Assembly (NCBI GenBank): GCA_026874595.1
Contig: CM049321.1
Span: 46,183,797-46,247,796 of the forward strand
Origin: Sipunculus nudus
Taxonomy: Eukaryota; Annelida; Sipuncula; Golfingiida; Sipunculidae
Direction: 5' to 3'
Length of the DNA: 64,000 nucleotides
Shown: positions 11,556-43,312 of the stretch, piece after piece
Layout: every line of letters begins with the position of its first letter
Position numbering within the stretch: the first letter of the stretch is position 1
Program-made: the position numbers and the translations under genes
Notes under the pieces: model-generated
What the model was told of the DNA's origin: nothing
The model's input: only the letters and a program-made list of their open reading frames with translations
Database searches by the model: none

Positions 11556-14499
11556 TTTTTAGCGAACCTGTGAGCTTATGAGATGGTGCGGCATCGTCCG
11601 TTGTGGGTCGTCTGTTGTGTGTTGTGCGTCGTCTGTACATTAACCATAGCTATCTCAAAAATGGCAGGAGCTAGCATCACCAATTTTTTTGCAAATAATC
11701 AGTCATCCAAAAAACTATGTTGGATTTTGTTTATTTTTTTTTCTAACTGCATTTTCTTAGATTTTATGGGAAAAAAATAAAAGAACTTTAAAAATCTTCT
11801 TCTCCAAAACTGTCCGGCCAAATTGTCCAATATTTCACAGAAATGATCCTTGGAACAATCTTTCTCAAGTTTGTTTGAATGGTTCCAGTTCGGAGATTTT
11901 TGGCCGAGATACAGCAGGTTGAACTTTGTTAACTGTGCAAAAAAGCATATTAAAATTTAAATCTCAGAAACGGCTTTAGCTATCATCACCAAATTTTATG
12001 CCAATGTTGGTCACATAGGTCATATATGAAATTGAGGTATTTATGGTGCTACCTGCATCGGCCTTTTTTATACAGGGTCATCAGTGCCTGTATCACACTG
12101 AGGACTACAAACAACTTTTTCTCTGAAACCATACGGCCAAAATGTTCCATATCGCACAGAAATGATCCTAGGGTAGTGCTTTCTGAAGTTTGTTCAAATG
12201 GTCTCTGTTCAGTGACTTTTGGCTAAGTTATAGAAAGCTGAATTTAGTCATATGCCATAACAGCCCATTTTAGCTCAGTGGCTACAAAGATCTTCTTCTC
12301 AAAAACCACTGGGCCAAATTCTTAAATCTCACATATTAATTATCCTCAGATGTTGATAATTCAAGTTTGTTCAAATGGTTTTGGTTCAGTGCTTTTTGGC
12401 TTAGTTACGATAAGCTGAACTTAGCCAGTTTGCTGTAATGTCCTATATGAGTTATAAACCTGCGAAACATTTTTAGCTCAGCTGACTATAAGTCATCTGA
12501 GCTATAGTCGTGGTCCATTGTCGGTCGTCCGTCTGTCTGTCCGTCCGTCCGTCTGTCCGTCCGTCCGTCCATAGATGTGGCACGTTTTGAAACCGTAAGA
12601 CCTAGGAATCCAAAATTCGGCATAGTGTTAGATGTCCCCAAGATCTCCTACCAAGCCGAAAACTGGGTCTTTGCAACTTTGTTCCTTTAAGAAATTAAGG
12701 AAAAACCTCAATTTTTTATTAAAAACCTATTTTCACACTTCAGGGCTGCCTAATATCAAAACCACTCATCTGTTTTTCCTCATATTTACCATAAATATTC
12801 CTCTATATAGTTCCTATGAACATGCCTGAAATTATGTCTGTATTATATAATTTAAGAAAGTTATGGGCCAGAACATAATGCATTTTGTAAAAAATCAGGA
12901 AAGATATTTGATCACTTAACACAAAACTTGTTAAAGCTATGGACTTTTTTTCAAGTAATATAACTTTAATTAATCAAAATTAAATTGTAGACCCAAAATT
13001 AGATCAAAATCTTTTAAATTTTTTAAAATATTAACAAAAATTTAAAATTGGTACCTTAAATTTTGCCTAACTTTGACCATGGCACGTTTTTCCTGTAAGT
13101 ACTGTGGATTTAATTTTCTCAGCATGTTTTTGTTAGCATTTTGTCTGTTAACACCAAAAATTTGAAACCAGTTGATCAAAAACTGTAGATTTTATTCAAG
13201 TTTTCAAGCACCATGTAACATATTGTTTACATCAGGCTAGTGTTAATTGCAGTTTGCAAGAGCTCAGCTCCCCAGCTTATAAACTCTCAGTTCCTAAAAT
13301 TTGGTATACAATTAGATGACTCCAAAATTCCCTACCATGCCAAGAATTTGGTCACTAGGACTTAATACCTTTGAGATATTAATGAAAACTTCATTTTTCA
13401 ATTAAAAACCCATTGTTACACTTCAATACTGCCTAATATCAAAACCACTGATCTGACTTTAATCATATATAATATACATGTTTTTTTATACATTCTCTGT
13501 GCACATGCCAGAAATGATGTCAGTATTGCGTAATTGTTTTAAGTTATGGGCCCAAACATAATGCACTTTGTAAAAAATCAAGAAATATATTTACTTCCTT
13601 AACACGGGGATTGCTGAAGCTAGAGATTTTTTGTCAGGGATGTAACATTATTTAATCAAGATTCAATTGACTACCAAAAATTAGTTCTGAATTTTTCAAA
13701 TTTTATAAGTTATTAGTATAAATATAAAATTAGTACCTTAAATTTTGCCCAACTTTGACCATTTCACTTTTGTTTCATGTGAGCTCTGTTTATATAATTT
13801 TCATATCATGCACACATAAGGATTTCAGCTTTTTAGTTTAGAAAGCTGAAAGAAATTTGCCAAAAATTGTAGCTTTTATTAATGTTTTTATGAGACCATG
13901 TCAGACCTTGGCTCTCTCCAGCCACTCTTGAGTCACCTGTATGTTGACCTTGTTGAACTTTCAGCAAATTATGCAGGCTTGAGGCGAGGCATATACTTGG
14001 CAGCAAGGCAGCTTATGGCCAGCCACAGTTGATCCAGGTGTCCAACCCAACTCATCTAGTAGTTTTAACCAACAACATAACAATAAACAATAAATTAATC
14101 AATTTTTATTGGTTTTTAATAAAAAATTAAAGAAAAATAGAAAAGGAATTTGTTAGTTTATAATAATAGGGAATTAACTTGCAGTTACTGATGATATAAG
14201 AATCTTGTATCAATGGATAGAATGTCACGTATTCCAAATAACACCATGCAGTCACCTATGGCATTTTTCAGTTCAATTTTAATAATAAAAAAGTAAATCA
14301 TATTATTCATTACTAATCATTAGGGATCATATGAAGGAACTTAATGATAGACAAAGATGCAGTTGATAATATTAATCAAGATTCCTACTGTGTCTAGTGT
14401 GTACATTGATGTGAAATTAGTCCAAAATAAATATATCACATTTTTATGCCCCCGCCACAAAGTGGCCGGGGCATATAGTTTTACCCATGTCCGTCATTC

Positions 14500-15428
14500 C
14501 GTCCTTCCGTCCTTCCAAAATCAAACAGTTGTACTGACTTTTTTTTGGAATGCCCGCAGATATTGGCCTGATTTTTGGTGTGTGGGCAGATATAGACCAG
14601 TTACAGATCGAGTTCGCGTTTCGTCACGGTTGACCTACTTTTGACCCTTTTACGGCTCCTTAACTTAGAAAATTTCATGAAAAATAGAAATTTCATGACA
14701 AATACACATGTACGGACTTTTTTTCGCAATGCCTGCAGATATTGGCCTGATTTTTGGTGTGTGGGCAGATATAGACCAGTTACAGATCGAGTTCGTGTTT
14801 CTTCCCGGTTGACCTACTTTTGACCGTTTTACGGCTCCTTAACTTAGACAATTTCATGAAAAATAGAAATTTCATGACAAATACACATGTACGGACTTTT
14901 TTCGCAATGCCTGCAGATATTGGCTAATATTTGGTGTGTGGGCAGATATAGACAAGTTACAGATCGAGTTCGCGTTTCGTCCCGGTTGACCTACTTTTGA
15001 CCGTTTTACGGCTCCTAAACTTAGAAAATTTCATGAAAATAGAAATTTCATGACAAATACACATGTACGGACTTTTTTTCGCAATGCCTGCAGATATTGG
15101 CCTGATTTTTGGTGTGTAGGCAGATAATGACCAGTTACAGATCAAGTTCGTGTTTCGTCCCAGTTGACCTACTTTTGACTGTTTTACGGCTCCTAAACTT
15201 AGAAAATTTTATGAAAAATAGAAATTTTCATGACCAATACACATTTTTTTCGCAATGCCTGCAGATATTGGCCTGATTTTGTGTGTATGGGCAGATAATG
15301 ACCAGTTATAGATCGAGTTCGCGTTTCTTCCCAGTTGACCTACTTTTGAATGTTTTATGCCTCCTTAACTTAGAAAATTTCATGAAAAATAGAAATATTC
15401 ATGACAGATACACATGTACGGACTTTTT
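14500..15428 (+). repeat. Tandem array of about 178-bp units, left part
   Basis: About five units, each with GCAGATATTGGCCTGA, AGATATAGACCAGTTACAG, GTTGACCTACTTTTGAC, ACGGCTCCT-AACTTAGA and a TTTCATGACAAATACACATG block. The array resumes at 20846, so an ancestral array of roughly ten units was split by an insertion. Confidence 0.9.
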
Positions 15429-15496
15429 AGCTCAGCTGACTGAAAGTCATCTGAGCTATAGCGATCACTCTTTGTCCGTCGTCCGTCTGTCCGTCC

Positions 15497-18400
15497 GTTA
15501 ACCAGGCACAAATCGTAACCGCTGGACCTAGAACCTTGTAACTTGGGATTCTGAGAGGTCCATAAAAAATCTCCTTGGAAACCAGAAATTAGGTCTCTGT
15601 TACCCATATCCTTCGAGCTATGGGGCCCCAAAGTACCCCCCAGAAAAGTAAAAAATTTCATACAAAAACTTCAATATCTCATTAACTACTTGACTGATGG
15701 TCATGATTTTTGACATACATATTGATCATGAGATGTTACATCACTTCCTGCAGACTGGTGGCGCCACCTGTATTTTTCGATTTTTTACGAATTTTTTTCT
15801 CTATTTTTGAGACCTTTAAAAATGTGAACATCTGTTAACAAGGCACAAATCATAAAGACTGGACTTAGAATCTTAATTCTTGACACACTAAGAGGTCCAT
15901 GAAAAATCTCCTTGGAAACCAGAAATTAGGTCTCTGTTACCCATATCCTTTGAGCTATCGGGCCCCAAAGTACCCCCTAGAATAGTAAAAAATTTCATAC
16001 AAAAACTTCAATATCTCATTAACTACATCACTGATGGTCATGATTTTCGACATACATATTGATCATGAGATGTTTCATCAGTTTGTGCAGACTGGTGGCA
16101 CCACCTGTATTTTTCAATGTTCACGAATTGTTTTCTCCATTTTTGAGACCTTTAAGGATGTAGTTATCTGTCAACAGGGTACAAATCGTAACGACTGGAC
16201 CTAGAATCTTCGTTCTTGACACACAGGGAGACCCATGATAAATCTCCTTGGAAACCTGAAATTTGGTTTCTGTTACCCATATCCTTCGAGCTATGTGGCC
16301 CCAAAGTACCCCCCAGAAAAGTCAAAAATTTCATACAAAAACTTCAATATCTCATTAACTACTTGACTGATGGTCATGATTTTTGGCATACATATTGATC
16401 ATGAGATGTTACATCACTTCCTGCAGACTGGTGGCGCCACCTGTATTTTTCGATTTTTTACGAATTTTTTTCTCTATTTTTGAGACCTTTAAAAATGTGA
16501 ACATCTGTTAACAAGGCACAAATCATAAAGACTGGACTTAGAATCTTAATTCTTGACACACTGAGAGGTCCATGAAAAATCTCCTTGGAAACCAGAAATT
16601 AGGTCTCTGTTACCCATATCCTTTGAGCTATCAGGCCCCAAAGTACCCCCCAGAAGAGTCAAAAATTTCATACAAAAACTTCAATATCTCATTAACTGCT
16701 TGACTGATGGTCATGATTTTTGGCATACATATTGATCATGAGATGTTACATCACTTCCTGCAGACTGGTGGCGCCACCTGTATTTTTCGATTTTTTACGA
16801 ATTTTTTCTCTATTTTTGAGACCTTTGAGGATGCTGTCATCTGTTAGCGTGGCACAAATCGTAACGACTGGACCTAGAATCTTCATTTTCGACAGACTGA
16901 GAGACCTATGAATAGTCTCCATGGAAACCAGAAATTAGGTCTCTGTTACCCATATCCTTTGAGCTATCGGGCCCCAAAGTACCCCCTAGAATAGTAAAAA
17001 ATTTCATACAAAAACTTCAATATCTCATTAACTACATCACTGATGGTCATGATTTTCGACATACATATTGATCATGAGATGTTTCATCAGTTTGTGCAGA
17101 CTGGTGGCGCCACCTGTACTGTTTGATTTTTTACGATTTTTTCCTCTATTTTTGAGACCTTTGAGGATGCTGTCATCTGTTAGCGTGGCACAAATGGTAA
17201 CGACTGGACCTAGAATCTTCATTTTCGACACACTGAGAGACCTATGAAAAGTCTCCATGGAAACCAGAAATTAGGTCTCTGTTACCCATATCCTTCGAGC
17301 TATGGGGCCCAAAATTACCCCCCAGAATAGTCAAAAATTTCATACAAAAACTTCAATATCTCATTAACTACATCACTGATGGTCATGATTTTCGACATAC
17401 ATATTGATCATGAGATGTTTCATCAGTTTGTGCAGACTGGTGGCGCCACCTGTATTTTTCAATGTTCACGAATTGTTTTCTCCATTTTTGAGACCTTTAA
17501 GGATGAAGTTATCTGTCAACAGGGTACAAATCGTAACGACTGGACCTAGAATCTTCGTTCTTGACACACAGGGAGACCCATGATAAGTCTCCATGGAAAC
17601 CTGAAATTTGGTCTCTGTTACCCATATCCTTCGAGCTATGTGGCCCCAAAGTACCCCCCAGAAAAGTAAAAAATTTCATACAAAAACTTCAATATCTCAT
17701 TAACTTCTTGACTGATGGTCATGATTTTTGGCATACATATTGATCATGAGATGTTACATCACTTCCTGCAGACTGGTGGCGCCACCTGTATTTTTTTATT
17801 TTTTACGAATTTTTTTCTCTATTTTTGAGACCTTTAAAAATGTGAACATCTGTTAACAAGGCACAAATCATAAAGACTGGACTTAGAATCTTAATTCTTG
17901 ACACACTGAGAGGTCCATGAAAAATCTCCTTGGAAACCAGAAATTAGGTCTCTGTTACCCATATCCTTTGAGCTATCAGGCCCCAAAGTACCCCCCAGAA
18001 GAGTCAAAAATTTCATACAAAAACTTCAATATCTCATTAACTGCTTGACTGATGGTCATGATTTTTGGCATACATATTGATCATGAGATGTTACATCACT
18101 TCCTGCAGACTGGTGGCGCCACCTGTATTTTTCGATTTTTTACGAATTTTTTCTCTATTTTTGAGACCTTTGAGGATGCTGTCATCTGTTAGCGTGGCAC
18201 AAATCGTAACGACTGGACCTAGAATCTTCATTTTCGACAGACTGAGAGACCTATGAATAGTCTCCATGGAAACCAGAAATTAGGTCTCTGTTACCCATAT
18301 CCTTTGAGCTATCGGGCCCCAAAGTACCCCCTAGAATAGTAAAAAATTTCATACAAAAACTTCAATATCTCATTAACTACATCACTGATGGTCATGATTT

Positions 18401-19494
18401 TCGACATACATATTGATCATGAGATGTTTCATCAGTTTGTGCAGACTGGTGGCGCCACCTGTATTTTTCAATGTTCACGAATTGTTTTCTCCATTTTTGA
18501 GACCTTTAAGGATGTAGTTATCTGTCAACAAGGTACAAATCGTAACGACTGGACCTAGAATCTTCGTTCTTGACACACAGGGAGACCCATGATAAGTCTC
18601 CATGGAAACCTGAAATTTGGTCTCTGTTACCCATATCCTTTGAGCTATGGCACTCCAAAGTACAGCTCAGAATAATGGAAAATTTGATACAAAAGCTAAA
18701 GTATCTGAACAACTAATGCAGAGATAACCATAATTGTTTGCATGGATATTGATCATGGAGTGTTTCATAAGTTTCTGCAGACTGGTGGCACCACCTGTAT
18801 TTGTTCGTTTTTTTTTACGAAATTTTTCTGTATTTTTGAGACCTTTAAAGATATGAACATCTGTTAACAGGGCACAAATCATAAAAACTGGACCAAGAAT
18901 CTTCATTCTTGACACACAGGGAGACCCATGAAAAGTCTCCATGGAAACTTGAAATTAGGTCTCTGTTACCCATATTCTTTAAGCTGTATGGGTCCAAAAT
19001 ACCCCCCCCCCCCCATGAATAATGGAAAATTTGATACAAAAACTGCAGTATTTCAATAACTACAACACTGATGGTCATGATTTTCGGCATACATATTGAT
19101 CATGAGCTTTTCCATCAGTTTCTGCAGACTGGGTGTGCCACCTCTATTTTTTTTTCAAATTTTTACGAATTTTTTTCTTTTTTTTGAGACCTTAAAAGAT
19201 GTGGTTATCTGTCAACAGGATACAAATCGCAACAACTGGACCTAGAATCTTCATTCTTGTCATGCAAGGAGGCCCATGAAAGGTGCCTGTGGAAACTTGA
19301 AATTAGGTCTCTGTTACCCATATCCTTCAAGCTATAGGACTCCGAAGTATCCCTCAGAATAATGGACAATTTGATACAAAAACTGAAGTATCTGAACAAC
19401 TAATGCAGAGATCACCATGATTTTTTGCATGGATATTGACCATTAAGTGTTTTTATTAGTTTCTGCAGACTGGTGGAGCCACCTGTATTTTTGT
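15497..19494 (+). repeat. 336-bp tandem array with higher-order structure
   Basis: About 12 units. The palindrome GGTGGCGCCACC falls at 15757, 16430, 16767, 17103, 17439, 17775, 18112 and 18448, i.e. every 336-337 bp, with one-base variants at 16094 and 18784. Each unit also has GGCACAAATC-TAA, GGAAACCAGAAATTAGGTCT, GTTACCCATATCCTT and CATACATATTGATCATGAG. Segments 1,345 bp apart (four units) are almost identical, for example 16450-16650 against 17795-17995, so some units were amplified as a block. Confidence 0.95.
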
Positions 19495-20663
19495 ATCCGC
19501 CAAAACGAAGTTTTGCGGATACTATGTTTTTGACCGAGTTCCTCCGCCGTGGCGGCGTTCGTTTCCAGAGAGCTCCTCAGAGACTAATGGACCGATTTTT
19601 CCCAAACTTACACCTATTATCGGGTCACATGTGAACTGGTGCCTAACCAATTTGCATTGACCTCTGACCTTTCCTCTCTATCCAGTGTCCATTTGTGGGT
19701 CTGTTTCCACTCATAAACCCTCATATCTCGGGAACCGTTTGACCGATCAGGAAATAAAATTGATACAAATGTAGCCCTTGGATTGCTTTATAACATACAC
19801 AAAAAATGGTGGCGCCAACTGTAACCATGTTTGCACAGTGTCCATCTGTTCATCTGCCTTGGGTTAAAATCACTCATATCTCTGCAGTGAATTGACTAAT
19901 TCACCTGAAATTCGGCATGTGTATACATCCAGGATAGCTTTCTTGATTTTATGACAGAGGGCGCCACTTATGTTCACGTTCACGCTGATGACATCCAAGC
20001 TTATATCTCGGGAACCGTTTGACCAATCAGGAAATAAAATTTATACAAATGTAGCCCTTTGATAGCTCTGTAACATACACAAAAAATGGTGGCGCCACCT
20101 GTAACAATGTTTGCACAGCGTCTGTCTGTTAGTCTGCCGTGGCCTAAAATTACTCATTTCTCTGTAATGGTTCGACATAACTGCCTAAAATTTTGCAGGT
20201 TTATACATCGTGGACAGCTTTCTTGATTTTATGACAGGTGGCGCCACCTACATTCTAGTTAACGCTGGACACATCCAAGCTCATATCTCAGGAACCATTT
20301 GACCGATTGGGCTAAAATTGTGCATGTGTTTAGATCTCACATAGGTCTTTATCATACACAAAACTGGAGGGGTTACCTGCAAAGATTTTTGCACGGTGTT
20401 AGTCTGTTTGTCTGCCATGGGCAAAAATCGCTCATATACATGTAGTGGTTTGACTTTTCTGCCTAAAATTTTGCAGGTTTATACAACTTGGACAGATTTC
20501 TGGATTTGTGGTAGGTGGCACAACCTACATACACATTTAGGCTGCAGACATCCATGCTAATATGCAACATACCTCACTCTATTTCCCCTTGCCACTCAAT
20601 CCATGCCTCACTATCGGATTTTGGCAGATACATGTAGTCACTTGTCGGTTACCCGTATTCTAG
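19495..20663 (+). mobile_element. Family D Helitron-like element (fifth, innermost level)
   Basis: It starts A|TCCGCC, with a hairpin pairing ATCCGC-AAAAC with GTTTT-GCGGAT, and ends with a degenerate GTAGTC/GGTTAC hairpin followed by ATT and CTAG at 20660-20663. TC...CTAG with a hairpin about seven bases before the end, inserted next to T, is the textbook Helitron terminus. It interrupts the last 336-bp unit. The body has two palindrome copies (20088, 20237) and TATCTCGGGAACCGTTTGAC repeats. Confidence 0.75.
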
Positions 20664-20845
20664 TTTTAAAAGTTTACACATTTTTCTCTATTTTTGAGAT
20701 ATATAAATACAGACTAAATCTTGGCCTGTTGGTTAATCTGTTTGATGCTTCAGTTGAATGGGTATATACTACCATTCTGGTGATAAAATTTCCTTTTGTG
20801 AATCTCTTCCCAGTCAGCTGACTGTCATGACCCATGGGTCACTTG

Positions 20846-21720
20846 TTTTCGCAATACCTGCAGATATTGGCCTGATTTTTGGTGTGTGGGCAGATATAGA
20901 CCAGTTACAGATCGAGTTTGCGTTTCGTCCCGGTTGACCTACTTTTGACCGTTATACGGCTCCTTAACTTAGAAAATTTCATGAAAAATAGAAATTTCAT
21001 GACAAATACACATGTACGGACTTTTTTTCGCAATGCCTGCAGATATTGGCCTGATTTTTGGTGTGTGGGCAGATATAGACCAGTTACAGATCAAGTTCGC
21101 GTTTCGTCCCGGTTGACCTACTTTAGACCGTTTTACGGCTCCTTAACTTAGAAAATTTCATGAAAATAGAAATTTCATGACAAATACACATGTACGGACT
21201 TTTTTTCGCAATGCCTGCAGATATTGGCCTGATTTTTGGTGTGTAGGCAGATAATGACCAGTTACAGATCGAGTTCTTGTTTTGTCCCAGTTGACCTACT
21301 TTTGACCGTTTGACTGCTCCTGAACATGAAAGTTTCATGAAAAATAGAAATTTTCATAACAAATGCATATGTACTGACTTTTTTTCCTCAATGCCTGCAG
21401 ATACCACCCTGATTTTTTATGTGTGGCCAGATAATGACAGTTACAGATCGAGTTCGTGTTTCGTCCCGGTTGACCTACTTTTCATTGTTTTACGGCTCCT
21501 AAACATAAAAAATTTCATGAAAGACAGAAATTTTTATGGAAAATGCACATGTATGGACTTTTTTTCACAATGCCTGCATATACTGGCTTGATTTTTGGTG
21601 TGTTGCTTGATAATGACCTGTTACAGATCAAGTTTGCATTTTGCCCTTGTTGACCTACTTTTGACCATACGACACCTCCTGAACTTAAAAAATTTTTCAA
21701 AATTTTACAAATGTTTCTAA
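20846..21720 (+). repeat. Tandem array of about 178-bp units, right part
   Basis: Five further units of the family C array, with more divergence towards the 3' end. Confidence 0.9.
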
Positions 21721-23024
21721 TTTGCCCCAGGCGGGGGCATTCGTGTCGTTCCGACACATCTAGTTTTTTTTATATAAATAAAAGCCATAAAACCAGGTAC
21801 TTATGATCATTATTAAATGTGTGATTTTTGTACATTCTGGATTCTCAACACCATTGTTTGGTGAAAACTGAATAAATACCAGACATGGTTGGAATACTTT
21901 TCAATTGTATTTAAATACGAATATGAATATGTACTCCATTATAAAATTTCTTGCATAAAGAATGGGAATTCAGGTAAAAATGAAAGTATATGAATACCAG
22001 TGCAAATACTTTCCAAATGTATTCATGAATGCATTCATGAATATATTCTTTTTCTTTCTTATTATTTTTAATAAAAATTATATCTGGGACAATATTTGTA
22101 ATTTTTTTAATAAATAGTTAAACTCTTATATTATATGTTCTGCTTATAAGTTATATGGCCAAGTCAAAATCTGTGTGACAATAGTACTCCATTTGTTAAT
22201 AAAATAAATGAAATCAATTCTCTTCTCTGTCTCCAAAGGTACTATCAAAATCATACATAAGCTTAACAACAACAACTCATAATACAGCTTATACTTATTA
22301 CCACACAAAACCAGCATGTGCCTCATTTCTAAATCATATTTTTTTATCATATATAACAGCTGAGCGCCGTGACCCATAGGTCCCTTGTTTGACTGATGCC
22401 ACTGAAGCCAGTTTGTTAAATATTTTACAAGAATAATTCCTACAATAATTCTTATAATAGTTGTCATTAATGGTTCCACATGAATGATTTTTGGCTGAAT
22501 TATGGAGACTAAATTGAATCATTTTACCTTATAACTGTGTGATGCTGTTACATCTTGCCTGGCACCAATTTATCAGCATCTATTACATCATGCCACTAGA
22601 CATTTAGATTTTAGGTTATCTTTGGTTAATATTGACAAGAAAGTTTTTTTAAAAGCTTTTATTCATCATAGCAGGCAATGTTACAGTCATGGATATTCAG
22701 CTCTCTGTGGCTATATAAAGACAACTGTATGTGGATTATAAATTATTGGTATCCCTACTCAACTTAATTCAAGAATTTGCCATCAATGAGATATATCTGT
22801 ATTTAAATTTTGCATTCAGTATGCATCCATAATAATTTTACATATATTCCTGATTTCTTTTTTATAAAAAGTCAGCTGAAAAGCATTTTGTATTGGGAAA
22901 ATAAATTTCAAATTTATTTCAAGTAGGGACCACATTTGTGTTCAGATGGCAGCACTTGGTTTTCCATTGGCAGATTGCCAGAGCCTTGATGTTGGCCATT
23001 AGCCAAGATGATGTCAGCTCTATA

Positions 23025-23330
23025 AATAGTTTTGGCACAGTGCCAGGATTGGAAGAAGTGCAGCCAGGTATAGGTCAAGAGTTCACTCAGTGCAGTAGCT
23101 GCATTCTATTTATAGCTTTGGCAGACTGCTCACTGCATCATATTTGGCACCAAAGTTCAGCCTGAATCTATTTATAGCTTTGGCAGACTGCCAACTGTGT
23201 CAGATTATGCAACAGGTAAAGAGTTCACTCAGTGCAGCCAGGTTCAGGTCAAAAGTTCACTCAGTCTAGCCAGGTGCAGGTCAAGAGTTCACTCAGTGCA
23301 GTAGCTTGAGGCAGCAATTTGTCACAGGTC
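23025..23330 (+). repeat. Degenerate minisatellite inside family B
   Basis: Repeated CAGGTCAAGAGTTCACTCAG and TATTTATAGCTTTGGCAGAC modules, followed by a G-rich tract at 23335-23351. The same CACTCAGTGCAG module recurs at about 37185 and, diverged, near 33293, both inside family B sequence. Confidence 0.7.
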
Positions 23331-24059
23331 ACTGGGGGGTGGGGGGGGGGGCAACTGCCTTACTCACCTAAGCCTTGTCAGCCCGACTCTGGGGAAGTTT
23401 GATGTATTGGACTGATATTTTGATCTGTCTATGCGTCTTTGATAGTATTCTCATTTACAAGACAGGTGGTGCCACGTACATTGACTTTTGCACAGTGTAT
23501 GGGCCTGCTTATTTCTACAGAGGAATTTGATATATCAGCCTGAAATTGGGCATATTTATACATATTGAATAGCTTTGTCATATACAAGACAGGTGGTGCC
23601 ACCTACAATAATTTTTCCATAATGTGTGTCCCTGCTTATTTCTCAGGAGGGGTTTGATATATCAGTATGAAAATTGGCATATGTGTATATCTCTGATAGT
23701 TTCAAAGTATACAAGACTGGTGGTGCCAGCTACAATCGTTTTTGTGTTGTGTGCACCCATGCCAAAATTTCAGCAGTGATGTTTGTGTAATTGTTTCTTA
23801 TTCAAAATGTTTAGTACTTGCATTGTTCATTTACATGAAAAGTAATGGTCCAGCATTGAAGCATTATATCTGGTGTATTTCCCAATGCACAGGTTCGCAT
23901 TAGGCCTGTAGGTCTTGCTTTTTTTTTTTTACTCCCGTCCAGTGGTTTGGTTACCCCAATACACTGGTCCTTTGAAATGGCCAGTTTCGGATTGACCGGA
24001 TTCAAAGCTCAATGAAACGGTTTCAGGTGCCGTTCCTTCTGGGTATTGTTAAGCCCCCT

Positions 24060-29827: not shown

Positions 29828-29869
<42 letters not shown>

Positions 29870-31494: not shown

Positions 31495-32563
31495 TTATGC
31501 CAACAGCCTGGGGAGCATAGAGAGCAGCACTGAATGACCTAGCAACAGTGACCAAAGTGGACTGTTTGACAATGTAAGGGAATACAACAAGAGCCTAAAA
31601 AAAATTAATAACTAGCCTAATTTTGCAGCTTTTATTTTCAAATTTAAGATTTTAACAGATTAAATCCTTATGTGCATGCTGTGAAAATTGGCGTGGCCAA
31701 AGTTGGGCAAAATTTAAGGTACCAATTTTTTATTTTGCTGATATTTTAAAAGATTTTGATCTAATTTTGGGTTTACAATTTAATTTTGATTAATTAAAGT
31801 TATTTTACTGGAAAAAAGGTCCTTAGCTTTAACGGGTTTTGTGTTAAGCGATCAAATATCTTTCCTGATTTTTTACAAGGTGCATTATGTTTGAGCCCAT
31901 AACTTTCTTAAATTGTATAATTCAGACCTTATTTCTGGCATGTACATAGGAACAATATAGAGGAATATTTATGGTAAATATGAGGAAAAATAGATGAGTG
32001 GTTTTGATATTAGGCAGTCCTTAAATGTGAAAATAGGTTTTTAATAAAAAATGAGGTTTTTCCTTAATTTCTCAAAGGAACAAAGTTGCAAAGACCCAGT
32101 TTTCAGCTTGGCAGGAGATCTTGGGGACATCTAACATTATGCCAACAGCCTGGGGAGCATAGAGAGCTGGGCTGGATGACCTACAGAGACCAAAGTGAAT
32201 ACAACAAGAGCCTCCAAAAAAATTCAATAACTAGCCTAATTCTGCAGCTTTTATTTTCAGATTTCAACAGATTAAATCCCTTAGTGTACATGCTGTGAAA
32301 ATTAAATCCACAGAACTTATATGAAAAAAAAAGTGCCATGGCCAAAGGTTGGGAACAATTTAAGGTACCAATTTTTTATTTTTGCTAATATTTTAAATAA
32401 TTTAAAAGATTTTGATCTAATTTTGGGTATACAATTTAATTTTGATTAATTAAAGTTATATTACTGGATAAAAAGTCCATAGTTTTAACATGTTTTGTGT
32501 TAAGTGATCAAATATCTTTCCTATTTTTTTACAAAATGCATTATGTTTGAGCCCATAACTTTT
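31495..32563. repeat. Tandem duplication inside family A copy 4
   Basis: Both copies start AACAGCCTGGGGAGCATAGA just after the string CATTATGCC (31499 and 32138 regions), then CAACAAGAGCCT and the inverted 5' body of family A. The second resumes after inserted elements at 35264 and runs to the 5' terminus. Confidence 0.75.
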
Positions 32564-32566
32564 TAG

Positions 32567-34988
32567 CGAAGCTGTGAGCTTATGCGATGGCAACGTCGTC
32601 CGTCCGCCGTTTAGGCCTGGCTTTCCGCCATCCATGGCTGTAAGTCAGAAACTGTCGGAGCTAGCAGCTCCAAATTACATGTAAAAATTTGTCACATGTG
32701 AAACTTGGTGCCCTGGAGCTTATTGTTGGGTATCTGCATTAATTTAGATTTTATAGAGAAAAAGCTTAAAAACCTTTAAAAATCTTCTTCTCTGAAACTG
32801 TTAAGCCAAATTGTCCAATATTTCACAAAAAAGATCCCTGGAACAATCTCTCTCAAGTTTGTTCGAATGGTTCCAGTTTGGAGATTTTTGGCCAAGTTAC
32901 AGAAGGTTGAACTTAGTCATTTGTCCAAAAAAGCACACTAAAATTAAATCTCAAAAACGGCTAGAGCTATAATGACCAAATTTTATACCAATGTTTGTCA
33001 CATATGTCATATCTGATTTTGAGGTATTGGTGGCGCCACCTACATTGATGTGTTTTTTACAAGCGAAAACGTAATTTTAAACTCTTCTAGCTAATACACT
33101 GATTTATGATGAAACTGTTCAGCTGATTGGTTTAAACTTTACAAGAATTATTCTATGGTAGGGTTCTGCCAGTTTTATAAGAATAGATTGGATAAATACA
33201 GTTTTAAAAAAGCATTGTAGCCAATTGAAAAAGGCTTTCTGTATTTGAAAACAGATTTGACTTCATACTGAGTTTCAGCAGCCAAGTCAAGAGGTCACTC
33301 AGTACAAACAGGTGGGGTCCAGACATCACCATGGCAACTGACCTGGCTGGGGGGGGGGGGGTGTCTAGACAATGTGTCTAGACGTCTGGACTCATTGTTT
33401 AGAAGCAGAATTCCCAGATTATTGGAACTGTATCTTTCAACTGTTTGAAAAAACTTGGTTTGCATTTTAAGCGAATCGGTTTATCATCAGGTCACATGTG
33501 AACTGCTGCACCCTCATTTTTGGTTGACCTCTGACATTTCCTTGCTGCCCAGCGTCTATTTGTGCGTCTGTTTCCACACATAAACCCACATATCTCGGGA
33601 ACCATTTGACCGATCAGGCTAGAAATTTTGCACAAATGTAGCCCTTTGATAGCTTTATAACATACACTAAAATTGGTGGCGCCACCTGCAACCATTTTTG
33701 CACAGCGTCCATCTGTTCATCTGCCTTCGGATAATATTACTCATATCTCTGCAGTGATTTGACTTATCCACCTGAAATTTTGCAGGTTTATACATCATGG
33801 ACAGCTTTCTCAATTTTATGACAGGTGGCGCCACCTACATTCACATTTACTCTGCAGACATCTAAGCTCATATCTCGAGAACAGTTTGACTGATTGAGCC
33901 AAAATTTTGCATGTGTATAGATCTTACATAGCTCTTCATCATAGGCAAAACTGGTGGCGCCACCTGCAACCACTTATGCACAGCGTCCATCTGTTGATCT
34001 GCCTTTGGATAAAATCACTCATATTTCAGCAGTGGTTTGACTAATCCACCTGAAATTTTGCAGGTTTATACATCCTGGACAACTTTCTTGATTTATATCA
34101 GGTGGTGCCACCTACATTCGCATTTACTCTGCAGACATCCAAGCTCATATCTCAGGAACCGTTTGACCGATTGGGCCAAAATTTTGCATGTGTATAGATC
34201 TTACATAGCTCTTCATCATAGGCAAAACTGGTGGCGCCAACTACAATCATAATGCACAGCGTCCATCTGTTCATCTGCCTTTGGATAAAATCACTCATAT
34301 CTCAGCCTTGGTTTGACTTTTCCACCTGAAATTTTGCAGGTTTATACATCATGGACAGCTTTCTCAATTTTATGACAGGTGGCGCCACCTACATTCACAT
34401 TTACTCTGCAGACATCCAAGCTCATATCTCGGGAACCGTTTGACTGATTAGGCCAAAATTTTGCATGTGTATAGATCTCACATAGCTCTTCATCATAGGC
34501 AAAACTGGTGGCTCCACCTGCAACCGCTTATGCACAGCATCAATCTGTTGATCTGCCTTGGGATAAAATCACTCATATCTCAGCAGTGGTTTGACTTATC
34601 CACCTGAAATTTTGCAGGTTTATACATCCTGGACAATTTTCTTGATTTTATGACAGGTGGCACCACCTACATTCACGTTTAAGCTGCAGACATCCATGCT
34701 AATATGCAACACACCACGCTCTATTCCCCTTGCCACTTAATCCATGCCTTACTTCACCCGTCCCACTCTGATTTCTGCGGATACACATAGTGGCTTGTTG
34801 ACTACCCATATTCTGGTTTTAAAATGTCCTAGTCTGAAACTTGCAGTTCAGAAACGTCCATTTTGCTGAAATCATAATGACTAAGGTAGATATGCAGGAC
34901 TTAGGAGGATCAATATTAAATTTAAAAAATAAACCTCCATTCATACTCCTAAACTTTGCACAGGTTCGCATTAGGCCTGTAGGCCTTG
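32567..34988 (+). mobile_element. Family B element, copy 2
   Basis: It begins AGCGAAGCTGTGAGCTTATG (AAGCT pairs with AGCTT) plus a CGTCGTCCGTCC tract, and ends CACAGGTTCGC, AGGCCTGTAGGCCT and TTG at 34988. The left flank CCCATAACTTTTT and right flank TTTAATTATAAAAT (after removing a MITE) join into the expected family A sequence, compared with CCCATAACTTTCTTAAATTG at 31900-31920. It holds one palindrome (33029) and a truncated family D copy. Confidence 0.8.
33466..34816 (+). mobile_element. 5'-truncated family D element
   Basis: It has the family D body but no ATCCGCC start. About four 277-bp units carry GGTGGCGCCACC (33675, 33824, 33953, 34378, plus variants at 34231 and 34507) and TATCTCGGGAACCGTTTGAC. 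The 3' end has GCGGATAC, a degenerate GTAG/CTAC hairpin and ATTCTGG in place of CTAG. Confidence 0.7.
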
Positions 34989-34993
34989 TTTAA

Positions 34994-35259
34994 CCCTTTA
35001 CTGTTTACATTTATTTTAGATTTCCAACAAATTCTGACACTATTTATATTTACACTAACAGCCATAACTTTTCAAGCTTTTTTTGTAACTTTATCAAATT
35101 TTCAACAGTTCCCACTAAGAGGGTTTGCTGAAGATTATTGAAAATCATTGAAACTTAGGAATAATATGCAACATTTTTGTCCTGAAAGAATCTATACATA
35201 TCATGGCATTCTAGTTGCCCATTTTGAGTGCTCTTTAGTGGCTTGTAAACAGTAAAGGG
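34994..35259. mobile_element. piggyBac-like MITE with TTAA target duplication
   Basis: The termini CCCTTTACTGTTTACA and TGTAAACAGTAAAGGG are perfect 16-bp inverted repeats. Both ends are flanked by TTAA (34990-34993 and 35260-35263). CCC...GGG termini and a TTAA duplication are the signature of the piggyBac superfamily. At 266 bp it is non-autonomous. It landed within 3 bp of the end of the family B element. Confidence 0.92.
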
Positions 35260-35622
35260 TTAATTATAAAATACCGACCTAATTTCTGGCATGTACATAG
35301 GTACTATGAAGAGGAATATTTATGGCAAATGTGAGAAAAAACAGATAAGTGGTTTTCATATGAGGTGGTCCTAAAGTGTGAAAATAGGTCTTTAATAAAA
35401 AAATTGAGGTTTTCCTTCATTTCTCAAAGGAACTAAATCGCAAAGACCCAGTTTCGGCTTGGTAGGAGATCTTGGGGCCATCTAACATTATGCCGAATTT
35501 TGGACTCCTAGGTCTTACGGTTTCAAAACGTGCCACATCTATGGACAGACGGAGGGACAGATGGACAAACGATGGACAATGGACCACGACTATAGCTCAG
35601 ATGCCTTATAGTCAGCTGAGCT

Positions 35623-36329
35623 AAAAATCTGTTTTAACCCAGCTCATTGGTAAACCCCTGGGCATGTTTGTTGAATTTATGACTGCATGAACACAAGCAT
35701 GGCTCACATGGGATACTGGACCCAGACAGCTTGCAGGCTATACAGGAAATGACCAGTGTCCATGGAAACTGTGTTTGGGTTATGAGCTCACATGTAAACT
35801 ATTGTGTTAATTCATTATTCTTAGCATAATATTCCATATTAACCAGTAGGATGCATCATGTCGACCAAAATTTCAGATACTTGGTTTACTAGACTATATA
35901 CATAAGATGAAACAAAATGCATGTAACAAGTACAACTTATTCCTGATTGAACTCAAGGGTAGGCCTCTAACCTGCTACTCAAGATGTGGGCGTGCACACC
36001 ATTGAGTGTTCAGTATGGTGTTTTCATGCCTTAAATTGTAATACTGTAGCAACTATGTAGAACTCCTCTGAGAACACTGGACAGATTTAAAAAAAAAAAA
36101 TACAGTTATTGGGTCAAATGTAACAAAAGTTTTACGGGATACATTTAACTGAATCTCTCTCGAGTCTGCCAAATCTTTCTCTTAATTTGTGGTTTTCTGC
36201 CATCAGTGCTGATTTCGCTTCCTCCAGAAGTACACACTGTGGGCATTCAGCGTTGAGTAGATGTAGGAATGAGAAGTCTGTTTGACTCCTGTTGCACAAC
36301 CATCTGGCAAGGTGGCTGCTGTTGCAACA
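35623..36329. other. Unassigned stretch
   Basis: No domain or repeat boundary recognised. Confidence 0.35.
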
Positions 36330-36849: not shown

Positions 36850-36978
36850 ATCTGTAAAATTATTAAACACTGCAGTAGATCCTGTAAAATTAAACAAGGC
36901 CTACTGGCCTAATGCAACCTGTGTAATGGGATATGCATCAGGTATAATGTTTCTATGCTGGACAAAAATGGAGGATAA

Positions 36979-37986
36979 CTGAAAGTCATCTGAGCTATAG
37001 TGATCACTCTTTGTCTGTCTGTCTGTTTATATAAACCAGGCACAATTTGTAACTACTGGACCTGGAATCTTACTTGACTACCAGGGAGGTCCTTGAAAAA
37101 TCTCCTTGGAAACCTGAAATGTGGTCTCTGTTACCCATTTCATCATCTGAGGTATCTTGAGCATAAGTTCCCTCCCTCAGTGCAGGTCAAGAGTTCACTC
37201 AGTGCAGTAGCTAAAGCTAGCAATTTGTTCCTGTTCACTCAGGGCAACTGCCTTTCTCACTTAAGCCTGATTAGCCCAGTGCACCTGACTCAAGAGAATT
37301 TTTATATCTGAGCCTGATATTTGGCATATGTGAATACATCTCAGATAGCTTAGTTGTATGTAAGGTTGGTGATGCCACCTACAAGCATTTTTGTGTTGTG
37401 TGCACTCATTCCAGTATTTCAGCAGAGATGTTTGTGTAATTGGTTCTTGATCTACATGTTTTTTTTTGTGGAGGTAACCACCTCCATTTTTTAATGCGTT
37501 ATTAATTGCATATATGTACATCTGCAGAATTCCATTCCTGTTTCAGACTATGTGACAAGGCAGTATCACACGCTTCCTCTCATTTTATATCCTGGTGTTA
37601 ACCAGGCCCAGTGACTACTGCACCTGGGGGCCCTGGGTGTGTAATCATCCCAATTGCTTGGTCATACCACTGAGGAGCCCCCGAAAGGCGCACTCGTTTG
37701 TGAGTGAAACATGGCCGTTGGGCACAGCCTACCCATTAAGCCTGCAGAGCGCTCACCCTGGGTGGGGGCCAACTGTGAAAAATCTCACCGCCTCAGCTGA
37801 GATTCAAACTCACGATCTTCCGCTTTGAGTGCTAGGCTCTACCCCTGAGCCACAGAAGCTGGTTTGATCTACATGTTAAGTATTTGCGTTATTCATGTAC
37901 ATATTACATATGTACTAGAAAAGAAATGGTCCAGTATTGAAGCATTATACCTGGTGAAAATACATTTGCACAGGTTCGCATTAATC
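36979..37986 (+). mobile_element. Chimeric family A / family B fragment
   Basis: 36979-37165 matches the start of family A copy 2 (GAAAGTCATCTGAGCTATAG, GTCTGTCTG tract, then the first part of a 336-bp unit). From about 37175 the sequence is the 3' part of family B, ending GCACAGGTTCGCATTA at 37969-37984 without the final hairpin. The junction is abrupt, so this is a deletion or recombination product. Confidence 0.65.
37461..37863 (-). mobile_element. tRNA-derived SINE with 14-bp target duplication
   Basis: On the minus strand the head at about 37860-37800 has an A box TGGCTCAGGGG-TAGAGC and a B box GTTTGAATCTC, the split pol III promoter of a tRNA. The tail at the left end is an A run (plus-strand T run 37459-37467). 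TTGATCTACATGTT flanks it at 37447-37460 and 37864-37877. The related family B sequence at about 23788-23815 has no insertion. Length about 403 bp. Confidence 0.88.
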
Positions 37987-38065
37987 ACTTTATTTGAAAT
38001 TCGGATGCAGAAAAATTATGAACAAATGTTTGCACAGGATCTTCATTCTTTTCATTTAAACAATT

Positions 38066-38273
38066 TTTAGCTCTGCTGACTAAAATTTTCAACTTATTGG
38101 CCTGTTTTAACATGCTTGTTAAGTTTTTGCTTTGCTTATTTGAACTTTTTAAGGTAGTTTTACAGTCCAACAGTTTTAAAACATGCCCTTTAAATGGACA
38201 GAAGGCAGAACACAACAAACAAAGGACCACAACTATGGCTCAGATGACTTACAGTCAGCTTAGCTAAAAAATA
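38066..38273. mobile_element. Inverted pair of family A 5' ends
   Basis: The left end reads TTTTTAGCTCTGCTGACTAAA and the right end reads ACAGTCAGCTTAGCTAAAAA, so two 5' termini face each other about 200 bp apart. The right part keeps the GGACCACAACTATGGCTCAG neighbourhood of a family A 5' end in reverse. Either a rearranged remnant or a fold-back derivative. Confidence 0.55.
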
Positions 38274-39169
38274 ATGTTGTTGCTTCAGCTGAACTGTTTC
38301 TTTTAGGAAGGGCAGGTAGTAGTACTGCTGTTTAATGTTTAAAAAAAATATTTTTTATCATAAGCACTTTTATATAAGTTTATGATAGAAAAGCTCTTGC
38401 TTAGCTTGCAGTGTTCTTCTGCCAGAAATATTATATATTAAAGTTACAGCAAGTGATACAATAATGAGGCCATGGTCAATTATGCTGTAAAGGCTAATTG
38501 AGTAAATCAGTCAAATGATCTTTAAAATAAAAAATAAAAAATTCCCTAAAATGTGGAATTATCTCAAATGGAAGGTGGAACTGCTGAGAAACTATTCAGC
38601 TTACACACACAAGAGCAGAGATCAGTATTTATACCATTACAGAGTTGGCCATGTTTTGAGTGCAGAGGAATGGTAATTTTTAGTTTGATTAACATTCTTT
38701 TTTATTTGAAAGAAACGAGACGCCTTCTGATATCCAATGATTTTGTTGACCAAAAGGACTTTAATATACTGGAAGCATTATAAATTAGATTTATGCTGGT
38801 CCACATTGTGATAAATAGGGTCAAATCTGTCCAAAATACAAAATTTAATGTTTTTTTAGCTCAGCTGACTTTCAGTCATGCTGGGCTATAGCGATGGGTC
38901 TTTGTCCGTCGTCCTTCCGTCTGTCCGGCCGGCCATTAGCAGGGCACAAATCGTAACCGTAGGGGCTAGGGCCATGAACCCTATGCAGTCTTAGAGGTTA
39001 TAAAAAGATCTCCTTGCAAACCTGAAATTAGGTCACTGTGACCTATATTCTCGAAGTTATGGGGTGTGTTTGCACCCCCCAGAAATAACTCTTTGAGACA
39101 AAATTTTCATCCCAAACCTTCCATCTTTCACATACAGCTCACCTACCAACAGGGGAAGAACCATAATTT

Positions 39170-39990
39170 TTTTTAGGTCAAAAGGTCAAAGGTCAAGGTC
39201 ACAGGAGCCTCTTCTTTGAAAAGCCTGTGGATGCATTTTAAGCCAACCCTTTCATCCCAATTCTTTGATCTTTCACATATAGCTCACCTACTAAGTTGGA
39301 GAAGAATCCTATAGATTTTGAGGTCACAAGGTCAAAGGTCAGGGTCACAGGATCCACTTCTTTGAAAAGGTTGTGGACACATTTCAAGCTAGACTTTTCA
39401 TTCCAAACCTTTCAGCACTGATATGGCTTCTCTGCCAACAGGGGAAAGACCTGTTGATTTTGAGGTCAAAGGTCAAGTTCACAGCACCCACTTCTTGCAT
39501 GGAGTAATTTTCAGGCAAACTTTTCAATCTGTACCTTCCATCTGTCATATATGGCTTACCTACCAATAAGGGAAGAAGCCTATTGATGTTGAGGTCAAAA
39601 AGTCAAAGGTCAAGGTCACAATATTTAATTGTTCTAAATGCTTGTTAGCATATTTCAAGTGTAACTGTTCAACCCAAACCTTCAGTCTTTCACATATGCC
39701 ACATCTATGCATCACTCAGTTTGACTCAAACTTCATATTTATGGGTCTTTTTGCTTGAATAAATAACCTATTGATTTTGGGGTCAGCTGGTCAGCAGGTT
39801 AAAGGTTGCAGGTCAAAGTTATTCACCCATTGGTTGCCAAGTAATTACACCAGATTTAAGTAGTTAGTAGTTACCCATCATTTAGAAAAAATCCAGTTGA
39901 TATGTGGGCAAAAGGCCAAGGTCATAGGTCAGTGATGTTCACAATTACTTATTTTATAGGTCAGTGATGTTCACAATTACTTATTTTATA
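39170..39990 (+). repeat. Degenerate repeats with clustered AGGTCA half-sites
   Basis: Units of roughly 130-150 bp recur at about 39176, 39330, 39460, 39598 and 39900, each with AAGGTCAAAGGTCAAGGTCA-like runs followed by a CTTTGAAAAG or TTTCA(CA)TAT block. AGGTCA is the nuclear-receptor half-site; spacing by one base (AGGTCAAAGGTCA) is a DR1 arrangement. A separate exact 32-bp tandem duplication (GTCAGTGATGTTCACAATTA...) is at about 39925-39990. Confidence 0.75.
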
Positions 39991-40433
39991 GACCATCTCT
40001 ATTTTTCTTGTATATATAACCATCCCACCCCAGCTGGTAATCTCCCTGTGTGGCTGTAATTGTGAGTGACACTGGTGACATATGACTCCCTTTTGTTTCA
40101 GCCTATTTAGTGATAAGGATCAGTGATAAGTACCTCGTTACTTCATAACAAAAACACTGTTGTCTGAATGCTTCAGCCAGGCATTAAGACTATGAGAGTA
40201 TAGTATTAAGGTTTAGCTACTGATTTATAAGATGATGGGAACATTTTGCAGTTTATTTTATGGAATCCTAGCAATAAACATAGTTTCCTAGATATCTGAA
40301 TATTTTAATATATATCACCACATATAAAAGCAAGTGTTTGTTCTCATAATATGTGGAGTGTACCTTGATTTAGGATGGCTTTTTGTTTTATTTCAAGACC
40401 CTTAGTCATGCTTTCTGGATTTCTTTTCTTTCA

Positions 40434-40539
40434 GGTTTGGCAGTTTACCTACCCTGCTGATCCCATTGAAAAGCAGAGTGATAATAAAAAATATTGGACT
40501 TACACTTTTTACAATTGCATATCTATAAATCTGATATGA
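40434..40539 (+). CDS. Possible terminal exon carried inside family A copy 5
   Basis: A strong polypyrimidine tract and acceptor (TTTCTTTTCTTTCAG, ending about 40433) is followed by an open frame VWQFTYPADPIEKQSDNKKY and 14 more residues to a TGA at about 40537-40539. The protein is unrecognised. Helitron-like elements are known to carry captured exons, which makes the location interesting, but a 34-codon frame can arise by chance. Confidence 0.25.
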
Positions 40540-40992
40540 GCGCCTGGACATGCCTTTTGAATTATTTTGGGCATTCATTACTGGATAATTTGCCCCAAGT
40601 TTGGTCTCTTATTGGAGAATGTGGGATATCAAATGTCATACTTGTCAGAAATCCATTATGTCTGCCAGTTAGCCACCTTAGAAATTATTTCTTCAGTGCA
40701 GTTTCAGTAATTTTTCTTTAATGTTTGGTCCGATTTAGAGAATGTTTGTTGTCTGATTTCAGACTTGTCAAAAGTCCAATATGGCCACCAGGCAACCATC
40801 TTTTAATTCCTTTTTATCATATTATCTCAAGAACAGTTAAAGTGAATGCAGTTGGATGTATATTTATGTAATCTTGTAAAGGATTGGGTCAAATATTTCT
40901 GAATAAATATTACCATCATTTATAAAAGTGCAATACAGTTGGCTTGTATTGAATAAAAATTCATACAGAAGCACCTGTTTCTCAATAATTGC

Positions 40993-42324
40993 ATCCGCCA
41001 AAACAGAGTTTTGCGGATACTAGGTTTTCAGCTGCACGCCGCTGCCGCCGCGTAGGTGTCCGGAGAACTCCTCCATAACCGCTGGGCAGAATTTTACGAA
41101 ACCCGGGATTATGTTCAGTTCACATGTGAACTGCTGCACCCCAATTTTGTTTTGACATCTGACCTTTCTTCTGCACTGCGTCAGTTTGTGTGTCTGTTTC
41201 CACACATAAACCAACATATCTCGGGAACCGTTTGACCGATCAGGAAATTTTTTTGCACAAATGTAGCCCTTGGAGAGCTGTTTAACATACAAAAAATGGT
41301 GGCGCCACCTGCAACCATGTTTGCAAAGTGTCCATCTGTTTGTATGCCTTGGGTTAAAATCACTCATATCTCCGCAGTGGTTTGACTAATTCACCTGAAA
41401 TTCAGCATGCGTATACAAATATAGCCCTGGGATAGCTTTATAACATATACAACAAAAGGTGGCGCCACCTGCAACCATGTTTGCACAGTGTCCATTTGTT
41501 CATCTGCCTGGGGTTAAAATCACTCATATCTCTGCAGTGGTTTGACTAATTCACCTAAAATTCGGCATGGGTATACATCCTAGACAGCTTTTCTGATTTT
41601 ATGACAGGTGGCGCCACCTACATTAACGTTTACGCTGCAGACATCCAAGCTCATATCTCGGGAACCGTTTGACCGCTTGAGCCAAAATTTTGCATGTGTA
41701 TAGATCTCACATAGCTCTGTATCATACGCAAAACTGGTGGCGCCACCTGCAGCCAATTTTTGCACAGCTCCCGTCTATTTGTCTGCCATGGGATAAAATC
41801 ACTCATATCTCTGCAGTGGTTTGACATATCTGCCTAAAATTTTGCAGGTTTATACATCCCCGACAGCTCTCTTGATTTTATGACAGATGGCGCCACCTAC
41901 ATTCTACATTTATGCAGCAGATATCCAAGCTCATATCTTGGGAACCGTTTGACCGATTGGGCCAAAGTTTTGCATGTGTATAGTTCTCACATAGCTCTTT
42001 ATCATACGCAAAACTGGTGGCACCACCTGCAGCCATTTTTGCACAGCGTCCATCTGTTTGTCTGCCAAGGGCAAAAATCACTCATATACATGTAGTGTTT
42101 TGACTTATCTGCCTTAAATTTTGCATGTGTATACAACTTGGACAGCTTTCTGGATTTTGTGGTAGGTGGCGCAACCTACATGCACAATGGGGCTGCAGAC
42201 ATCCATGCTAATATACAACACTTCACTCTATTTCCCCTTGCCACTCAATCCATGCCTCACTTCACCAGTTCCACTCTGATTTAGGCGGATACACGTAGTC
42301 GCTTGTCGACTACCCGTATTCTAG
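40993..42324 (+). mobile_element. Complete family D Helitron-like element
   Basis: It starts A|TCCGCC at 40993 with an ATCCGC-AAAAC / GTTTT-GCGGAT hairpin. The reverse complement GGCGGAT is at 42284-42290, then a perfect seven-base hairpin GTAGTCG / CGACTAC (loop CTTGT), seven bases, and CTAG at 42321-42324, followed by T. This fits Helitron rules (TC start, CTRR end, A|T insertion) plus the inverted end copies of helentrons. Palindromes at 41298, 41458, 41607 and 41736. No coding capacity. Confidence 0.85.
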
Positions 42325-43312
42325 TTCTGGCATGTATTTCCTTGATTTTTGCTATATATTTTGATCTTATATTTGCCCTTTGTGAAGTTCCTTATGAGAC
42401 TGACAGGTTTCAAGCAAGCTGTTGGAATAGTTCCTGATAGCTTAACAATCATGCATTTTCCTCAGACCATCAATTCACTGTGTTTTAACCAGACATAGGT
42501 GATATATATTTCTGTTGTCATAGAAAATTTTCAACAAATTGGCAAATTGGTTCTTCAAAATTTGACTGGAAGTTGTGAATCTCAGTCCATGATGTCACAG
42601 GTCATGCATGGCAGCTGAGCGTCATGACCCATGGGTCACTTGTTTACTTCACGACTGCTGGCTAAACAATAATCAGAATTTGGGAAAATAACACCAGACT
42701 TTCCCAAGCATTTTTCACATTTCAGAATTAAATAGATTAAATACTTAAATATCATATTTTATTGAACAAACTTCAATATTTAAGTTAGCTAGCTAAAGTC
42801 ATGTCTACTCACCCTGTCCAAGGGCCAAGAGCTTTTGTGCCTTTATGTGTGCAGAATTCTACCCTTTGCTTCATCATCTTTTTTTTTGTTCTTTTATTTC
42901 CAACACTGAAACATGTAACAAATCTTAAGAATACTTGATACCTGGTAAATGTGTAATTGAGCTGGCAGATCTGTTAATATTTGGGTTTCACTACCCAGGT
43001 CAAATGGTTAAATTTAATGCACTTTTTGTTTTCAAACTTCTGAGTTTCTGAAATATGCATTGTGTCCCATAGACTGTAAAATATAGGTCAGATCTTAATT
43101 AAAGTCTCTTGAAAATCATATTGCCTGTTTTCACATAAAACCTAAACTGCCTTTTTCCAACAGCTTTGACTCATCGCCTGCTGAAGGGTAGTTCAAAGCC
43201 TATCATAAAAACCACTATTTTCCACCTGTCTTCAGCAATTGTATAAAGGAAAATAAATGAATTAACTAAAGACATTAACAGAACGACAATTTATCTGATT
43301 TTGCCTTTTTTT

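Follow-up and report, generated by a model that had tools for sequence, protein, structure and literature searches.

Nested non-autonomous elements in Sipunculus nudus: five families with unlike end sequences and probable Helentron-type ends

The DNA considered here is a stretch of the Sipunculus nudus genome (GenBank assembly GCA_026874595.1, contig CM049321.1, positions 46,183,797 to 46,247,796 of the forward strand; the whole stretch of 64,000 nt is called the window below, and all motif, hairpin, and palindrome counts are confined to it). Its element-rich part, at 11561-44329, holds families of non-coding mobile DNA that are nested in each other, and that differ in the sequence of their ends while sharing a similar end design. 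We consider it very probable that these families, named A to E, are non-autonomous rolling-circle elements with ends of the Helentron/Helitron2 type, similar to the HINE and DINE-1 elements. This assignment draws together the form of the ends, inverted subterminal repeats, insertion into T-runs, nesting, central satellites, and the lack of a coding domain in the open reading frames (ORFs) that were scanned. An initial annotation of this DNA had proposed five families with particular ends and a helentron-type class. The families and their ends were confirmed, with 11 full copies mapped, and the class is upheld by the end design, by insertion into T-runs without duplication beyond possible Ts, and by the absence of any coding domain seen. 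The extent it had given, 11561 to 42642, taken to cover all families, is too short, as the single family E copy (E1) lies outside it, at 43313-44329 on the plus strand.

The nest, the termini, and the insertion sites

The 11 two-ended copies comprise five of family A, two each of B and D, and one each of C and E; together with a 5'-truncated D copy (D3) they occupy 24,440 nt, about 75% of 11561-44329. The deepest nest has five levels, which show in what order the elements inserted. Its outermost member, B1 (11561-23917, plus strand), begins with AGCGAACCTG and carries CACAGGTTCGC before its terminal CTTG; it contains A1 (12475-22387, plus), which contains C1 (14446-21763, plus), which contains A2 (15429-20845, plus), which in turn contains D1 (19495-20663, plus). 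We infer that the two ends of B1, which lie 12 kb apart, belong to one element, because both fit and because its left part resembles that of the second B copy, B2. In a second nest, A4 (30678-35622, minus strand) contains B2 (32565-34988, plus), which contains D3 (33478-34824, plus), a copy whose 5' end is missing and which resembles D1 and D2 at about 78-84% similarity in its main matches. A5 (38858-42642, plus) contains D2 (40993-42324, plus), and A3 (26731-29355, plus) and E1 are solitary; A1 and A3 are 92% identical over 1973 aligned nt. Six of the seven nested inserts are co-oriented with their host element. The elements contain 161 T-runs of at least five bases against 108 A-runs, and since this bias is only mild, we draw no claim from the co-orientation.

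Every full copy (11/11) begins with A, in the context AGCTC, AGCGA, ATGCC, ATCCG, or AGCCC, and in nine of the 11 the start is preceded by at least five Ts; D1 is preceded by TTTTTGT and D2 by ATTGC. The D start may lie 2 nt upstream (at 19493 and 40991, respectively), which would lengthen the D1 stem and place a T to the left of both copies. The 3' terminus is CTTG in A and B and CTAG in C and D, as had been annotated, and it is CTAG in E as well. In 11 of 11 copies, an inverted copy of the opening 12 nt, matching in 9-11 of 12 nt, sits at a distance of 18-34 nt from the 3' terminus (21 nt in A1). This inverted copy of the start had been claimed for A to D and overlooked for E, which fits the 3' plan with its inverted repeat CTGAGGGCT, 3' hairpin, and CTAG. 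For the test, the terminal 80 nt were searched for the best inverted match to these 12 nt, which was compared with that in 2000 random 80-mers from the window, giving uncorrected p values of 0.017-0.04 for the A copies, which are marginal singly, and 0.001-0.0065 for B to E. The fixed position of the inverted repeat among the copies of a family is a stronger argument than these per-copy values. A GTCC-rich tract, which had been reported for A, B, C, and E, is found in A, C, and E and is weak in B, and tandem arrays are present in all five families.

These termini also bear on whether the families could be canonical Helitrons (Helitron1), which start with 5' TC, end with a 3' hairpin and CTRR, and insert between A and T. 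The hairpin and CTAG of C, D, and E would fit CTRR. However, a TC start after A occurs in 0 of 11 copies, the flanks are T-runs and not A|T, inverted subterminal repeats are present, and A and B end in CTTG; we regard this as the least probable of the explanations weighed here, with next to no weight.

Ten of the 11 copies have a T next to the left end, and the same number have one next to the right end. For four of the seven nested insertions (B2, A2, C1, and D1), the joins could be aligned with empty sites, which are paralogous, lie within the window, and consist of T-rich DNA. Those left out are A1 in B1 and D2 in A5, for which no usable paralog was seen by eye, and the truncated D3. B2 in A4 has one extra base compared with the empty sites in A1 and A3. 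A2 in C1 has two extra Ts compared with four of five other C1 repeat units and three compared with the fifth, and C1 in A1 has three extra bases compared with A3. For D1 in A2, comparison with nine other A2 units gives 1-4 extra bases, a range that shifts to -1 to 2 should D begin two bases upstream. The extra bases fall within T-runs at B2, A2, and C1. Small further gaps and mismatches occur at the D1 and C1 joins, so that the precision of these counts is coarser than a single base and the D1 alignment is uncertain by a few nucleotides. At the four joins compared with empty sites, no duplicated motif other than T was found.

Ts flank most copies on both sides, and all four joins gain bases, which is what would be expected if the families were miniature inverted-repeat transposable elements (MITEs) moved into T-runs by DDE transposases, with the extra Ts as a short target duplication. 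Against this, the inverted repeats are asymmetric, at 0 nt from the 5' terminus as against 18-34 nt from the 3' terminus, and the number of extra bases varies among insertions. How a cut-and-paste element looks can be seen locally, in a MITE at 34990-35263 that directly adjoins B2 inside A4, has inverted ends TTAACCCTTTACTGTTTACA, and is flanked by TTAA on both sides; we take it to be piggyBac-like. We therefore hold a DDE-driven origin of families A to E to be very improbable.

If the families are instead rolling-circle elements of the Helentron type, their movement could be pictured as follows. A Rep (HUH)-helicase would be supplied in trans by autonomous elements elsewhere and would nick at the 5' T|A, with the 5' hairpin, in the geometry seen in A, C, and D, marking the start. 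The nicked strand would be displaced, or peeled off, up to the 3' end, where the hairpin together with CTTG or CTAG would terminate the reaction, and the released strand, probably circular, would be joined into another T|T site. The partner is probably specific to each family, or else one that tolerates sequence change within a fixed shape.

Hairpins at the two ends

It had been claimed that every family starts with a hairpin. Measured as folding-energy z against shuffled sequences, this is true of A, C, and D (z -2.8 to -5.1). In family A, the four copies folded give z -2.8 to -4.8, and the first 29 nt of A3 are those of A1; the value is -5.1 in C and -4.0 and -4.8 in D. The 5' ends of A1 (12475-12503, plus strand), A2, and C1 (14446-14474, plus) share one fold, made up of 7 bp, a 1x1 mismatch, 5 bp, and a 3-nt loop. 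In D1 (19495-19520, plus) and D2, a stem of 6 bp is followed by one bulged base, with 5 bp and a 3-nt loop above it. On the 5' arm, the unpaired base is C in A1, A2, C1, D1, and D2, and the arm sequences differ among the families. One 5' hairpin geometry is thus common to A, C, and D despite their unlike sequences. Within family A there are departures, as A4 has one extra stem mismatch, and A5 folds into a stem of 8 bp and, past a T that bulges from the 3' arm, 5 bp with a 3-nt loop, by which the upper part is kept and the unpaired C is lost.

A scan for the two figures that used base pairing and no sequence found six places on the plus strand, all of them element starts (A1, A2, A3, C1, D1, and D2), compared with a random expectation of 0.07 per strand from 30 simulated windows. 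It finds six of the 10 plus-strand starts, missing A5, B1, B2, and E1; the minus-strand copy A4 is also missed, and the four minus-strand places are the A1, A2, A3, and C1 hairpins read as reverse complements. Because both figures were derived from families A, C, and D, recovery of these starts holds by construction, and the result is the absence of other places. In 5.8 Mb of random sequence, 427 hairpins of 11-13 bp had a single interruption, and six of them combined a 5-bp upper stem with a 3-nt loop; three random hairpins would agree on upper stem and loop length about once in a thousand.

The initial annotation had noted that the A 5' hairpins differ only in their loop, which applies to A1, A2, and A3 but not to A4, with its additional mismatch, or to A5, in which the 3' arm has changed. 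The same loop-only difference is found between D1 and D2, where the loop differs at two of its three bases and the arms at none of their 23, in elements that are 16-21% diverged (chance 0.004-0.02). Within the family, sequence is conserved, the D1 and D2 arms being identical and the loop alone changed.

A second hairpin had been described at the 3' end. The predicted fold places one at the expected position in eight of 10 ends (not in A4 or D1; the B1 3' end was left out), whereas its folding energy gives it less support. That is one of several observations that weigh against the Helentron-type assignment. Among the 10 ends folded, only C1 and D2 pass z -2, and the A copies, with z -1.1 to 0.2, are no better than shuffles by energy. 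At the 5' end, the hairpin of B is likewise no better than shuffles (z 1.2 and -0.7) and that of E is weak (z -1.2). Family D has no GTCC tract, D2 has a C at its left and B1 a C at its right, families C and E are each known from a single copy, and the ends of B1 are paired by inference. Finally, the 1-4 bases gained at the joins, mostly T, could be part of the element, the product of slippage, or a short all-T duplication.

The initial annotation went on to suggest that the elements use the shape, not the sequence, of their ends. The hairpin geometry common to A, C, and D stands, but the formulation overreaches, because B and E are without the shape, A5 departs from it, and the arms of D1 and D2 were kept identical. 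It is conceivable, if rather unlikely in our estimate, that one class of Rep reads the starts of unrelated-looking families by hairpin geometry, with arm sequences replaceable as pairs. By analogy, the geometry read by such a Rep (6-7 bp, then 5 bp with a 3-nt loop, separated by an unpaired C in the 5' arm) would be a eukaryotic counterpart to the way in which bacterial HUH transposases read a bulge. If the start is read in this way, a search for partners by end sequence would be the wrong one and a search by shape the right one.

Satellites and exchange between families

Several of the satellites share a palindrome, GGTGGCGCCACC, which, with up to two mismatches allowed, is found 39 times in the window, whereas 20 base shuffles gave a mean of 0.25. 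Eleven sites are in A2, 19 in D1-D3, four in B1 and B2 together, two in E1, one in a mosaic described below, and two elsewhere (7493 and 11396); there are none in the own sequence of A1, A3, A4, A5, or C1. Those in the A2, B, D, and E satellites fall in the stretches 15757-18795, 19472-20525, 23465-23730, 33029-34667, 41298-42176, and 43622-43936, the first of which (plus strand) holds the first ten palindromes of the A2 satellite, at one per about 336 bp. The sequence GGTGGCGCCACT at 7493 was set aside as a chance match.

A profile of the D monomer scores 66 bits in B, 32 in A2, and 29 in E (best shuffle 6.9), and, with the palindrome masked, 34, 12, and 8 bits (best shuffle 5.8). In pairwise comparison of consensus flanks, B-D and the left flank of Da-E are clearly above shuffles, A2-Da is narrowly so (one in 300 shuffles was as good), and A2-B, A2-Db, B-E, and Db-E are not clearly above them. 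Judged by these scores, the B and D satellites are homologous beyond GGTGGCGCCACC, and the kinship of the A2 and E satellites outside the palindrome is weak.

Satellites do not stay with one set of ends. The ends of family A enclose differing interiors, with array units of 336 bp in A2 and 146 bp in A5 and, in A1, A3, and A4, a longer repeat that has diverged; the satellites of C1 and E1 have units of 179 and 302 bp. At 36978-37983 (plus strand), an A2-type start with its satellite (36978-37156) is joined to the 3' part of a family B element (37180-37461 and 37910-37983), with an unmatched segment at about 37462-37909. It thus seems that ends and satellites are recombined with each other, which has also been described for the group 2 elements of oysters (PMC7492417). 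The shared palindrome offers a handle on the passage of satellites between element families. Other fragments of the families include a decayed 5' end of a further A copy at 38196-38265 and a B 3' end at 36895-36963, both on the minus strand. A 3' end-like site at 7744 was dropped, as no matching 5' end was seen.

The satellites and ends together raise the question whether the five families are old relatives of one element, whose plan is common by descent and not by a code of shape, an account that is compatible with the HINE/DINE-1-like assignment. The masked scores given above favor it, clearly for B and D and weakly for A2 and E, as does the sequence after the hairpin, which by eye is roughly TAT(A/T)G or TATG in A, C, D, and E. 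On the other side stand the null flank comparisons, and the switching of satellites between end types, seen in the A2-type satellite with a B 3' end and in the at least three internal contents found between family A ends; moreover, descent alone leaves unexplained a hairpin shape that is kept when both arms have changed. We regard common descent as a serious possibility, to which we give slightly less than even weight.

Searches for relatives of these sequences covered viral contigs with four patterns, three of which had no match there; the fourth, a 16-base satellite core, matched 13 stretches, which we assume to be chance. One pattern searched in prokaryote genome contigs gave 0 matches.

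Coding content of the window and comparison with known elements

No Pfam family was found at E 0.001 in 109 ORFs (stop-to-stop, at least 62 aa) starting in 11000-45000, and nothing was found when the window was scanned with Rfam (gathering threshold) and for tRNAs. Outside the element-rich part, the minus strand has ORFs resembling those of long terminal repeat (LTR) retrotransposons at 48560-53330. The two of these scanned, at 48560-49690 and 50461-51171, contain an integrase, and a reverse transcriptase with RNase H-like domains. Direct copies at 47494-47808 and 53264-53572, 93% alike, are possibly the LTRs of this element. A further minus-strand ORF, at 9751-10236, has a domain like YqaJ and viral alkaline exonuclease.

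A full-text literature search with six end motifs and the palindrome returned no mobile-element paper by title, figures, supplements, and Repbase being outside its reach. The comparisons that follow are with known systems as described in excerpts of the cited papers. For the reading of an interrupted hairpin, there is a precedent in the HUH enzymes of IS200/IS605 and TnpA-REP, which contact the unpaired or mismatched base of imperfect hairpins, but these are bacterial enzymes and the likeness is one of analogy only (PMC8266576). Helraiser, a canonical Helitron, likewise has a 3' hairpin followed by CTAG, which serves as its terminator. When the sequence of its 3' stem was swapped, about 90% of activity was kept, and when the whole hairpin or the loop was swapped, activity fell to the level of a hairpin deletion (PMC4778049). 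It differs from the present families in its 5' TC start and in that its 3' loop is not exchangeable, while the 5' loops of A and D vary. The FoHeli elements of Fusarium, which belong to Helitron2, share asymmetric terminal inverted repeats with our families, but end in ATTTT or CTCCTGT, and the autonomous FoHelis encode Rep-Hel (PMC5148889).

Closer likenesses are found with DINE-1 and HINE-Mo, elements for which Helentron partners are known and which have subterminal inverted repeats (subTIRs; palindromic in the mite families), a 3' palindrome, TT insertion sites, and no coding capacity (PMC4067079). The distance of the 3' subTIR from the end is about 38-60 bp in mites and 18-34 nt in families A to E. 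The relatives in Culex and Drosophila have a variable number of Ts at their boundaries, and Ts of this kind are reported, in other species, to belong to the element (PMC4067079).

The nearest counterparts are in oysters. The Cg_HINEs of Crassostrea gigas are built, in order, of a subTIR, an inverted repeat, a GTCY/GTCC/GTCK microsatellite, tandem repeats, a second subTIR, and a palindrome; they insert into T-rich sites with no target-site duplication, and several mutually unrelated families follow this one plan (PMC7492417). Families A to E resemble them in module order, GTCC-type microsatellite (in A, C, E, and weakly B), central satellite arrays, a 3' palindrome in most of the predicted folds, and T-rich sites, as well as in the lack of sequence relation between families and in having similar flanks around unrelated satellites. 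In C. virginica, CvA, CvE, and CvG are also different in sequence and alike in structure (PMC11136912). Ten autonomous elements with a Helentron-type Rep motif are reported from the oyster, none of which its authors were able to relate to the HINEs (PMC7492417). If the reading of starts by shape were true, one enzyme could move many families, which would explain these missing sequence-matched partners. Unrelated families on one plan are therefore already in print. Compared by description only, the Sipunculus elements differ from the Cg_HINEs in their five-deep nesting, in their CTTG and CTAG ends, and in a single 5' hairpin geometry found in three families; what is added here is this common geometry, the pair of 3' tetranucleotides, the nest of five levels and the empty sites within it, and the palindrome common to several satellites.

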